Origin: Pelagibacteraceae bacterium AG-426-G02
Lineage (GTDB): Bacteria > Pseudomonadota > Alphaproteobacteria > Pelagibacterales > Pelagibacteraceae
Direction: 5' to 3'
Length of the DNA: 64,000 nt
NCBI GenBank assembly: GCA_003213155.1
Contig: QCNQ01000003.1
Coordinates: forward strand, 31,856 to 95,855
Shown: in pieces, positions 1,230 through 40,498 of the stretch
How positions within the stretch are numbered: the first letter of the stretch is position 1
How the letters are laid out: the number at the start of each line of letters is the position of its first letter
Notes under the pieces: model-generated
The model's input: only the letters and a program-made list of their open reading frames with translations
Database searches by the model: none
Told to the model about the DNA's origin: nothing
Made by a program: the position numbers and the translations under genes

Positions 1230-1583
1230 ATGAAAGTATCTGCAACAAATTCGGCACTTAGTTTATTATCTGAACTTAAAGAAAAATATGGTGAAAAGTT
1301 AATGTTTCATCAATCAGGTGGATGTTGTGATGGGAGTGCACCTATGTGTTTCCAAGAAGGTGAATTTCCATTGGGAGATAACGATATTAAACTTGGGGAA
1401 ATAGGTGGAGTTCCATTTTATATGAATGGTGATCAATATGAAAAATGGAAACATACTGATCTTACGATAGATGCTGTAAAAGGAATTGGTGGAATGTTTT
1501 CATTAGATAATGGAACTGGACGAAGATTTTTAACTAAATCTGAAATATGCCTCGTAGTGGATAACGATAATCCAAATCATTAA
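1230..1583 (+). CDS. DUF779 family protein
   Basis: Small conserved protein of the DUF779 family, whose genes often sit next to acetaldehyde-type aldehyde dehydrogenases, as here. The family signature is seen as FHQSGGCCDGSAPMC, with a Cys-Cys pair and a further Cys that could bind metal, followed by GDNDIKLGEIGGVPFYM. No signal peptide or membrane segment. The track starts at ATG 1212, but that codon lies in the 3' arm of a hairpin and has no Shine-Dalgarno; the ATG at 1230 (MKVSATNSALSLL) follows AGAGA and gives the usual N-terminus, so I prefer it. The biochemical role is unknown; it may assist the neighbouring dehydrogenase. Confidence 0.85.
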   Translation: MKVSATNSALSLLSELKEKYGEKLMFHQSGGCCDGSAPMCFQEGEFPLGDNDIKLGEIGGVPFYMNGDQYEKWKHTDLTIDAVKGIGGMFSLDNGTGRRFLTKSEICLVVDNDNPNH

Positions 1584-1595
1584 ATTTATTTAACA

Positions 1596-2066
1596 ATGCC
1601 GATTTTTTTAAGTTCACAAAAAATTGTGAAGGATTGGATTGATTATAACAATCATATGAATGTTTCTTATTATCTTTTGATCTTTGATAAATATGGGGCT
1701 GATATATTAAATGACACCTTTAAAATGGGTGAGCATTCAGCAAGGACTACCGGAAAAAGTACGATGATTGTTGAGTCTCATATTACATATAATCAAGAAC
1801 TAAAGATGAATGATGAGGTAGATGTAAATTTAGTTTTTTTTGATCACGATAAAAAAAGGTTGCAATATAAGATGGAAATGATCCATAAGCAAAAGCAATA
1901 TTTAGCATCTACGATTGAAGTCCTTGCATTATATGTTGATTTAAATAATCGAAAAGTCTCAGAATTCGAGGGAGATAAATTAGAAATTATGGATAATTAT
2001 ATTAAAAATAATATAGAAAAGTTTGATAATACTAACCTTAAGTTTTCCTCTAAATTGAAAAAGTAA
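1596..2066 (+). CDS. Hotdog-fold acyl-CoA thioesterase (4HBT type)
   Basis: Cytoplasmic thioesterase of the hotdog fold. The N-terminal active-site stretch VKDWIDYNNHMNVSYYL matches the DxNxHMN/xxY pattern of 4-hydroxybenzoyl-CoA thioesterase-like proteins, and the length (156 aa) is usual. This subgroup includes the thioesterases found with carnitine/betaine breakdown, but nothing else here points to that pathway, so the substrate is open. It starts 12 nt after the DUF779 stop and is probably co-transcribed with the dehydrogenase. The C-terminus is Lys/Asn-rich, in keeping with the AT-rich genome. Confidence 0.75.
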   Translation: MPIFLSSQKIVKDWIDYNNHMNVSYYLLIFDKYGADILNDTFKMGEHSARTTGKSTMIVESHITYNQELKMNDEVDVNLVFFDHDKKRLQYKMEMIHKQKQYLASTIEVLALYVDLNNRKVSEFEGDKLEIMDNYIKNNIEKFDNTNLKFSSKLKK

Positions 2067-38055: not shown

Positions 38056-39207
38056 TTGAACAGATTAAATCAATTAACAGAGATACATCAGTCAGGAAAA
38101 CCCTACATTATTTATAAATCTAAAAAAGGATTTAATCTTTATACTAATTTTTCAAAAAAAATTATTTTAAATAATAAAAATATTAAAAGTTTTTTAACTA
38201 AAAAAAATAAAAAGAAATCAAAAGATACCGACCTTTTTATTGGTTTCTTTGGATATGAGTTATTGAATAATCTGATTGATGTTAAAATCCCAAAACAAAA
38301 GAATTTAAATTTTCCCAAAGGTATTTTCTATAAACCAGAAAAAAAAATCAAACTAAACAACAAGTTAAATTATGATTTTGAAAATTTTAAATCAGGTAAT
38401 TTTAAAATAAATATTAATAGAAAAAATTATACAAAAATATTCAATAAATTTAAAAAAAAAATAAAAAGTGGGGAAACATATCAAATTAAAATTTGCACTA
38501 AATATAAAACAAAGTCAAAAATTAATCCGTTAGATTTTTTTTCGAGGTTATCCAATACTAACCTAGCTCCTGAGGCTTTTATGGTTAAAGATCATAATTA
38601 TTCAATAATTAGCTGTTCCCCAGAAACTTTAATTACAAAAAAGGGGAGTGATATATCTACAAAACCAATAGCTGGAACTGTAAAAAAAACGAAACATTTA
38701 AATAAATTGAAGGCATTAAATTATTTTAGAAAAAATTTAAAAGAAACCAAAGAGCACAATATGATTGTTGATATGGAAAGAAATGATTTATCAAGAATTT
38801 GCAAAGTGGGCACTGTAAAATTATCTAAACAAAAAATCGTAGAGGAATATAAAGACCTTTTTCATTATGTCAGCCTCATCAAGGGTAAATTAAAAAAAAA
38901 TATAAATAATTTTGAAATCATTAAAGCAATGATGCCTGGTGGTTCAGTTATTGGGTGTCCAAAGATAAACACACTTAATCTTTTAAATAATCAGGAAAAA
39001 GAAAACAGGAATATTTATACAGGTAGTTTTGGCTACATAAAATTCAATGGTGATATGAGATTTAACATAATTATACGTTCAATTTTAAATTTTAAAAATA
39101 TATCTGAAATTTCAGTTGCTTCAGGTGTTGTGGTCGATAGTAATGCCAATCATGAGTTTAATGAAAATTTTCTTAAAGCTAAAGCGTTAATAGATTTATT
39201 TAAATGA
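38056..39207 (+). CDS. pabB: Chorismate-binding enzyme, aminodeoxychorismate synthase component I-like
   Basis: Chorismate-utilising enzyme that, with the amidotransferase downstream, makes 4-amino-4-deoxychorismate for folate. The catalytic core begins after ~125 residues; SGETYQIKICTKYKT, MERNDLSRICKVG, MMPGGSVIGCPKI and YTGSFGYIKFNGDMRFNI are family motifs. The PabB-specific Lys of PIKGT is Ala here (PIAGT), as in TrpE. 383 aa is short, with a reduced N-terminal domain. Start is TTG, two bases after the MFS stop; no near ATG exists. Assigned to Pab because the class IV aminotransferase follows. Confidence 0.8.
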   Translation: MNRLNQLTEIHQSGKPYIIYKSKKGFNLYTNFSKKIILNNKNIKSFLTKKNKKKSKDTDLFIGFFGYELLNNLIDVKIPKQKNLNFPKGIFYKPEKKIKLNNKLNYDFENFKSGNFKININRKNYTKIFNKFKKKIKSGETYQIKICTKYKTKSKINPLDFFSRLSNTNLAPEAFMVKDHNYSIISCSPETLITKKGSDISTKPIAGTVKKTKHLNKLKALNYFRKNLKETKEHNMIVDMERNDLSRICKVGTVKLSKQKIVEEYKDLFHYVSLIKGKLKKNINNFEIIKAMMPGGSVIGCPKINTLNLLNNQEKENRNIYTGSFGYIKFNGDMRFNIIIRSILNFKNISEISVASGVVVDSNANHEFNENFLKAKALIDLFK

Positions 39208-39761
39208 TTTATGTAATTGATCATAACGACTCCTTTACTCATAATGTAGTTCATCAATTTGCTTTGTTTGATAAAGTTGAGTGCGATAACTATGATAAAA
39301 TTAATGAAAATAAAATTAAGCAAGCATCTACAATAATTTTTTCACCTGGACCAGGTAATCCAAAAAATTATCCAATCACCTCAAAAATTTATAAAAAATA
39401 TAAAGGTAAAAAGAAAATCATAGGGATTTGTCTAGGATTTCAACATATTTTATTTTGTGAAGGCGCAAAAATTGTTGAACAAAAAAAAATTTATCATGGA
39501 TTTCAATCAAATATAAAAGTAATCACTAATAAATCTTTATTCAAAAAAGAAAAAATATTTAAAGTTGGTAGGTATCATTCTTTAAAATTAAAAGAGCCTT
39601 TCAAATCTAATAATTTTGAGATAACTATGAGATGTTTAAATTCAAAAGTTGCAATGGCATTTGAAAATCAAAAGGAAAAAATTTATGGATTTCAATTTCA
39701 CCCAGAATCTTTTTTAACTATCAATGGTAACCTACTTATTAAAAAAATCTTATCAGCTTAA
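39204..39761 (+). CDS. pabA: Glutamine amidotransferase, aminodeoxychorismate synthase component II
   Basis: Class I glutamine amidotransferase giving ammonia to PabB. The nucleophile lies in IGICLGFQHIL near residue 78, SPGPGNPKN precedes it, and the His-Glu pair is in YGFQFHPESFL near the end. 185 aa is usual. ATGA overlap with pabB. Its 3' end also hosts the probable start codon of pabC (39724). TrpG identity is possible because the two are alike, but position favours PabA. Confidence 0.87.
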   Translation: MIYVIDHNDSFTHNVVHQFALFDKVECDNYDKINENKIKQASTIIFSPGPGNPKNYPITSKIYKKYKGKKKIIGICLGFQHILFCEGAKIVEQKKIYHGFQSNIKVITNKSLFKKEKIFKVGRYHSLKLKEPFKSNNFEITMRCLNSKVAMAFENQKEKIYGFQFHPESFLTINGNLLIKKILSA

Positions 39762-39793
39762 AGACTTAAAACAGATAGAATTCCAAGATCTTT

Positions 39794-39800
39794 GGGGGGG
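39794..39800 (+). other. Seven-G run breaking the pabC reading frame
   Basis: A run of GGGGGGG in a roughly 30% GC genome. Upstream frame ATG 39724 encodes MVTYLLKKSYQLKDLKQIEF... and enters the run. The conserved GDHGIFTTM lies in the frame of the downstream ORF (39821), one base away. Removing one G joins the two into a full PabC start. Confidence 0.75.
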
Positions 39801-39820
39801 ATCATGGAATTTTTACAACG

Positions 39821-40498
39821 ATGTGGATTTTTGGCAAACCAGCAAAAATCTTATTTTTTGATAATCATTTAAAAAACTTAATTTTATCATTAAAAAAATA
39901 TCAAATTAAAAAGAAATCATTAAGGTCGGATATTTTACAAATAATAAATAAAAATCTATCCAAAAAGAGGAAATATAATCACCTATTGAGAATTGCTATA
40001 AATAAAAAAGTTATTTCAATATCTTTAAGGAAAAGAGTTAAACCAAAATTAAATTTTAATTTGAAGTTAGTAAAATTAAAAAGAGAAAAACCAGAGTTTA
40101 AAAATCTTAAATACAAAAAGATCTTATCTTATTTATCTAAAATGGATAACTCCCAATCAGATATTGCATTGGTATCTAATAAGAAATTATTAGAAACTGG
40201 AACCTCAAATTTATTATTTGTTAAAAATCAAAAATTTTTTACTCCCAAAAAGGATTATTATGAGGGAAATACTTATAAATTTTTCAAAACAAAAATAACA
40301 AAGATTTTTAAGAAAGATATTTTGCTTAAAGAGATAAAAAATTACGATGAAATTTTATTGATAGGATCTGGAAAAGGGGTTGCTTCAGTTAGAACTATAA
40401 ATGAGCTTAAATGGAAAAGAAAAAACCTAAAAAAATTTAAGTTTTTATCAAAACAATATGATGCAGTCATAAATAAATGCAATTCTTATAGATTTTAA
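39821..40498 (+). CDS. pabC: Aminodeoxychorismate lyase-like protein, N-terminus frameshifted
   Basis: Class IV PLP aminotransferase fold; should release pyruvate from aminodeoxychorismate to give p-aminobenzoate. The PLP-Lys is in YKKILSYLSKMD near residue 107 and LLETGTSNLLFVKN carries the PLP-anchoring Glu. The annotated ATG (39821) leaves out the strictly conserved GDxGxFTTM motif, which is read in the same frame just upstream as GGDHGIFTT, with no canonical start codon before an in-frame stop at 39776. An ATG at 39724 in the +1-related frame supplies the expected N-terminus if one G of the seven-G run is lost. It is therefore a frameshifted gene, a programmed slip or a sequencing error. 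The gene ends 3 nt before the HIT gene. Confidence 0.72.
   Translation: MWIFGKPAKILFFDNHLKNLILSLKKYQIKKKSLRSDILQIINKNLSKKRKYNHLLRIAINKKVISISLRKRVKPKLNFNLKLVKLKREKPEFKNLKYKKILSYLSKMDNSQSDIALVSNKKLLETGTSNLLFVKNQKFFTPKKDYYEGNTYKFFKTKITKIFKKDILLKEIKNYDEILLIGSGKGVASVRTINELKWKRKNLKKFKFLSKQYDAVINKCNSYRF

Follow-up and report, generated by a model that had tools for sequence, protein, structure and literature searches.

Poly-G phase-variable genes are familiar from Campylobacter and Neisseria. Such genes (PMC6321876, PMC5084427) share with the gene that we assign to pabC in a 64,000-nucleotide stretch of Pelagibacteraceae bacterium AG-426-G02 (the window) a coding G run at which one base shifts the frame, but the tract in the window's gene differs from theirs in that it is not kept in relatives and no length variation was seen, and the product is a housekeeping enzyme. 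A prokaryotic frameshift survey regards frameshifts confined to a single genome as likely errors or indel mutations and allows that clustered ones may be programmed (PMC3711429). The window's case resembles these singletons, being a homopolymer break in a conserved gene that is seen in one genome and shared by no relative, and we found no trait that distinguishes it from them. With pabC of other Pelagibacteraceae (PF01063) the copy in the window has in common its site after pabA and the overlapping ATG, and the encoded proteins are up to 99% identical; those genes, however, are unbroken, whereas the window's copy has one extra G. The window's ordinary pabC carries a private insertion of a single base, for which we consider technical error the most likely cause.

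Three consecutive genes on the forward strand, pabB, pabA and pabC, make up the locus (Table 1). The highest NCBIfam match of pabB is TIGR01824, yet it falls under the cut-off of that model, while pabA scores 124.8 against TIGR00566, above the cut-off of 121.05, and begins with an ATGA that overlaps the end of pabB. The third gene would encode 4-amino-4-deoxychorismate lyase; the class IV aminotransferase domain that it codes for and its position behind pabB and pabA point to this. Its frame, read from stop to stop, covers PF01063 profile positions 1-223; against TIGR03461 it reaches 38.1 bits, below the cut-off of 176.85, in a scoring of the window's gene alone. A sequence search of solved structures returned only 3ceb_A, a weak match (E=1.3e-4) that leaves the N terminus uncovered. 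The start of pabC lies within pabA, giving a 38-base overlap (39724-39761). Given the constant distance of 24 codons from ATG to motif in the motif-matched relatives described below, this overlap is probably conserved, and it suggests translational coupling.

Table 1 Features of the pab locus in the window and positions of pabC breaks in other genomes of the genus
Feature	Position	Strand	Remarks
pabB (chorismate-binding enzyme)	38056..39207	+	Intact, TTG start as listed; PF00425 E=7.1e-73
pabA (glutamine amidotransferase, TrpG/PabA type)	39204..39761	+	Intact; PF00117 E=2.8e-39
pabC, 5' part	39724..39793	+	First 23 codons (MVTYLLKKSYQLKDLKQIEFQDL) and first base of the next TGG; frame 1
GGGGGGG run, frame break	39794..39800	+	One G above the six-G form TGG GGG GAT
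pabC, remaining frame, stop to stop	39779..40498	+	With GGDHGIFTTM and Aminotran_4; PF01063 E=3.8e-21
pabC break in G052	L124 1583-1593		Near an A11 run
pabC break in G440	L131 about 1575-1637		Near A9 runs
pabC break in G364	L134 about 1957		Near an A6 run

The earlier note had proposed that a run of seven G separates the start of pabC from its conserved N-terminal motif, and the run and all the coordinates given there proved correct. The open reading frame at 39821-40498 lacks GDHGIFTTM, which is coded directly upstream in the same frame; followed further upstream, that frame reads NSKIFGGDHGIFTTM from the stop TAG at 39776-39778, and no ATG, GTG or TTG lies between this stop and the motif. 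In another frame, reading from an ATG that lies within pabA, at 39724, leads through MVTYLLKKSYQLKDLKQIEFQDLW into the seven G, and this frame, MVTYLLKKSYQLKDLKQIEFQDLWGGSWNF, is lost past the run. The stop-to-stop pabC frame amounts to 239 codons here, compared with 256-260 in the 29 nearest matches.

Relatives were collected by protein search, which gave 30 loci from near genomes (29 besides the window's own) and 80 from named genomes, nearly all of the latter titled Pelagibacteraceae single-cell isolates or Candidatus Pelagibacter; the two sets partly overlap. Motif matching yielded 102 Pelagibacteraceae loci with 80 distinct pabC sequences. Every one of the 102 has a single open frame with an ATG exactly 72 bases (24 codons) upstream of the motif, and relatives read DLWGDHGIFTTMWIFG in one frame. 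The GDxGxFTT motif is preceded by an in-frame start codon in all 102, and by none in this assembly. The remaining seven loci, with variant motifs (GGHG, GHHG, GDRG, GNHG), were judged by eye to be open too. The Asp or the first Gly of GDHG is variable (GGHG, GHHG, GNHG, EDHG) in L053, L082, L084, L027, L107, L075 and L105, in which the gene is otherwise intact. The single frame of the relatives identifies the ATG at 39724 as the true pabC start, parted from GDHGIFTTM by one surplus G.

The frameshift would be irrelevant if PabC were made from 39821, or if a rare start codon, for instance the ATC at 39788, were used. The frame from 39821 is still recognised as Aminotran_4 (E=7e-20) and the ATC is in frame upstream of the motif, but the match from 39821 extends over profile positions 10-223, losing positions 1-9 together with the N-terminal stretch before them, and all relatives use the upstream ATG, with closely similar first 24 codons. 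We regard this explanation as the least credible of those considered here, and we reject a start at 39821 itself in view of the upstream ATG in every relative. Homologues starting intact at 39821 and managing without the motif, which the earlier note had envisaged, were not encountered; the upstream start and the region of the motif are retained in all of the relatives.

A slippage switch was one of the causes put forward earlier. It could take the form of phase variation of the G run, or of recoding at GGGGGGG (a +1 shift of the ribosome, or slippage in transcription) by which PabC would be made at a set level. The anatomy is right for it, as two frames overlap over a homopolymer. Such a switch, however, should retain its tract and show it in several lengths, and neither is seen in the relatives. 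Their site is TGG-GGN-GAT, in which the glycine codon is GGA in 45, GGG in 25 and GGT in 8 of the 80 distinct genes, the codon being GAA in the other two. Six G occur only where the codon is GGG, and in 55 of the 80 the tract does not exceed four G, owing to drift at the third position of the glycine codon or to a GAA codon. The six-G run is thus plain TGG GGG GAT, one of several synonymous spellings of the glycine. The seven-G pattern was found in one of 399 genus genomes (one per species), the window's own. All other pabC genes that were read are in frame at this site, and single-G length variation was seen in none of them. Nor was a conserved frame break, as expected of programmed frameshifting or transcriptional slippage, found in any relative. 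PabC is moreover a cytoplasmic metabolic enzyme, and the pabC frameshifts of other genomes fall at other sites. Since relatives are without the break and mostly without the tract, we reject programmed or phase-variable slippage, and we accord a switch or recoding at this site very little probability. Even less attaches to the extended proposal of an on/off switch of PabC at the population level, whereby some SAR11 cells of this lineage would stop making 4-aminobenzoate and use that of their neighbours.

The G run itself had been thought striking in so AT-rich a genome. When the window (GC content 30.7%) is modelled as a first-order Markov chain, about 0.9 runs of G7 or C7 are expected per 64 kb, and 60% of simulations contain one or more; since base composition predicts this number, a G7 run alone is not improbable. 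GGGGGG occurs three times in the window against 6.06 expected from shuffles, which is no excess. G7 runs are nevertheless few in the actual genome, which has two in 1.04 Mb. The second of these (L113 1501-1507; G000:C16:17492-17498) lies in frame in an intact 564-residue ABC-transporter open reading frame, between the Walker A region and the signature motif (VGEGGNRLSSGQ).

Selection on the gene bears on how old the insertion could be. Downstream of it, dN/dS of the frame is 0.02-0.09 against the nearest relatives, compared with a median of 0.063 between relatives, and only two codons are private, one of them silent. Purifying selection on pabC is undiminished and there is no sign of decay, on which ground we reject an old pseudogene. 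Because the gene has not drifted, the insertion is either very recent or absent from the organism. The first of these would be a real insertion, caused by slippage when the six-G run was replicated, leaving one cell or strain null for pabC and reliant on 4-aminobenzoate from outside or a different enzyme of class IV. A run of six G is a plausible site for slippage, and the second G7 run, being in frame, indicates that the assembly can render such runs unbroken. With a full-length relative as query, pabC was matched in 283 of the 399 genus genomes and in 47 of the 57 that are at least 90% complete; its absence from the matches in the other 10 may mean that it is dispensable in places, or may reflect replacement, assembly gaps or divergence. 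Against a fresh null stand the lack of relaxed selection and of other lesions in pabC, and the open state of pabB and pabA. Among randomly sampled cells, furthermore, few should be null for a folate gene, whereas the error rate considered next predicts about two indels per window. We therefore hold a real mutation of this kind to be unlikely, though it is a more serious contender than any form of switch.

Several of the nearest relatives carry AG- or AH- isolate names, which we take to denote single-cell genomes of the GORG-Tropics kind. Together with the state of the assembly (33 contigs, 82.67% completeness), this leads us to infer that the window's genome also came from a single-cell workflow. 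The GORG-Tropics workflow has been benchmarked at 3.0 indels per 100 kb (PMC11247762; PMC6122165), or about two when scaled to the 64-kb window. Long blocks aligned with the genomes of two close relatives (G104 and G105) show a single clear frame-shifting indel within a gene that is not compensated, namely the extra G, the other indels being compensating pairs of alignment gaps in divergent genes, mostly in open reading frames of similar length in both genomes. We reject a generally poor assembly for these blocks, in which no further clear net frameshift within genes was found.

Breaks of pabC within a contig occur in at least three other genomes of the genus, each at a different place (Table 1). 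With that of the window, the four breaks in 283 pabC genes of 0.77 kb correspond to about 1.8 per 100 kb, similar in magnitude to the benchmark error rate. This figure is a lower bound, as the inspection covered those matches that had a split or short appearance. Their scatter over different homopolymers fits sporadic errors or mutations and not a switch at one site.

We propose the following account of the locus. The gene would be an ordinary pabC starting at the ATG within the end of pabA, with an ancestral TGG GGG GAT that supplies six G and encodes Trp-Gly-Asp. A seventh G, present in one assembly, would put the start out of frame, and was most likely introduced by amplification, sequencing or assembly error in a draft of the single-cell type. 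The living cell would then probably have six G and an intact pabC. The insertion is private, as no other genome examined has the extra G; a technical cause is what the error rates point to, and a genuine insertion would give an identical picture in the assembly. The earlier note had offered three causes, and of these the slippage switch is unsupported because no relative has the frame break and most are without the G tract; sequencing error and private loss of function remain, with error the likelier.

By itself the finding carries little weight. Were the run a true switch, it would suggest that an abundant ocean bacterium hedges its bets in a vitamin pathway, an idea that nothing we found favours. 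The finding is rather a caution for metabolic reconstruction: a single homopolymer indel in a draft single-cell genome can mimic the loss or truncation of a folate gene.
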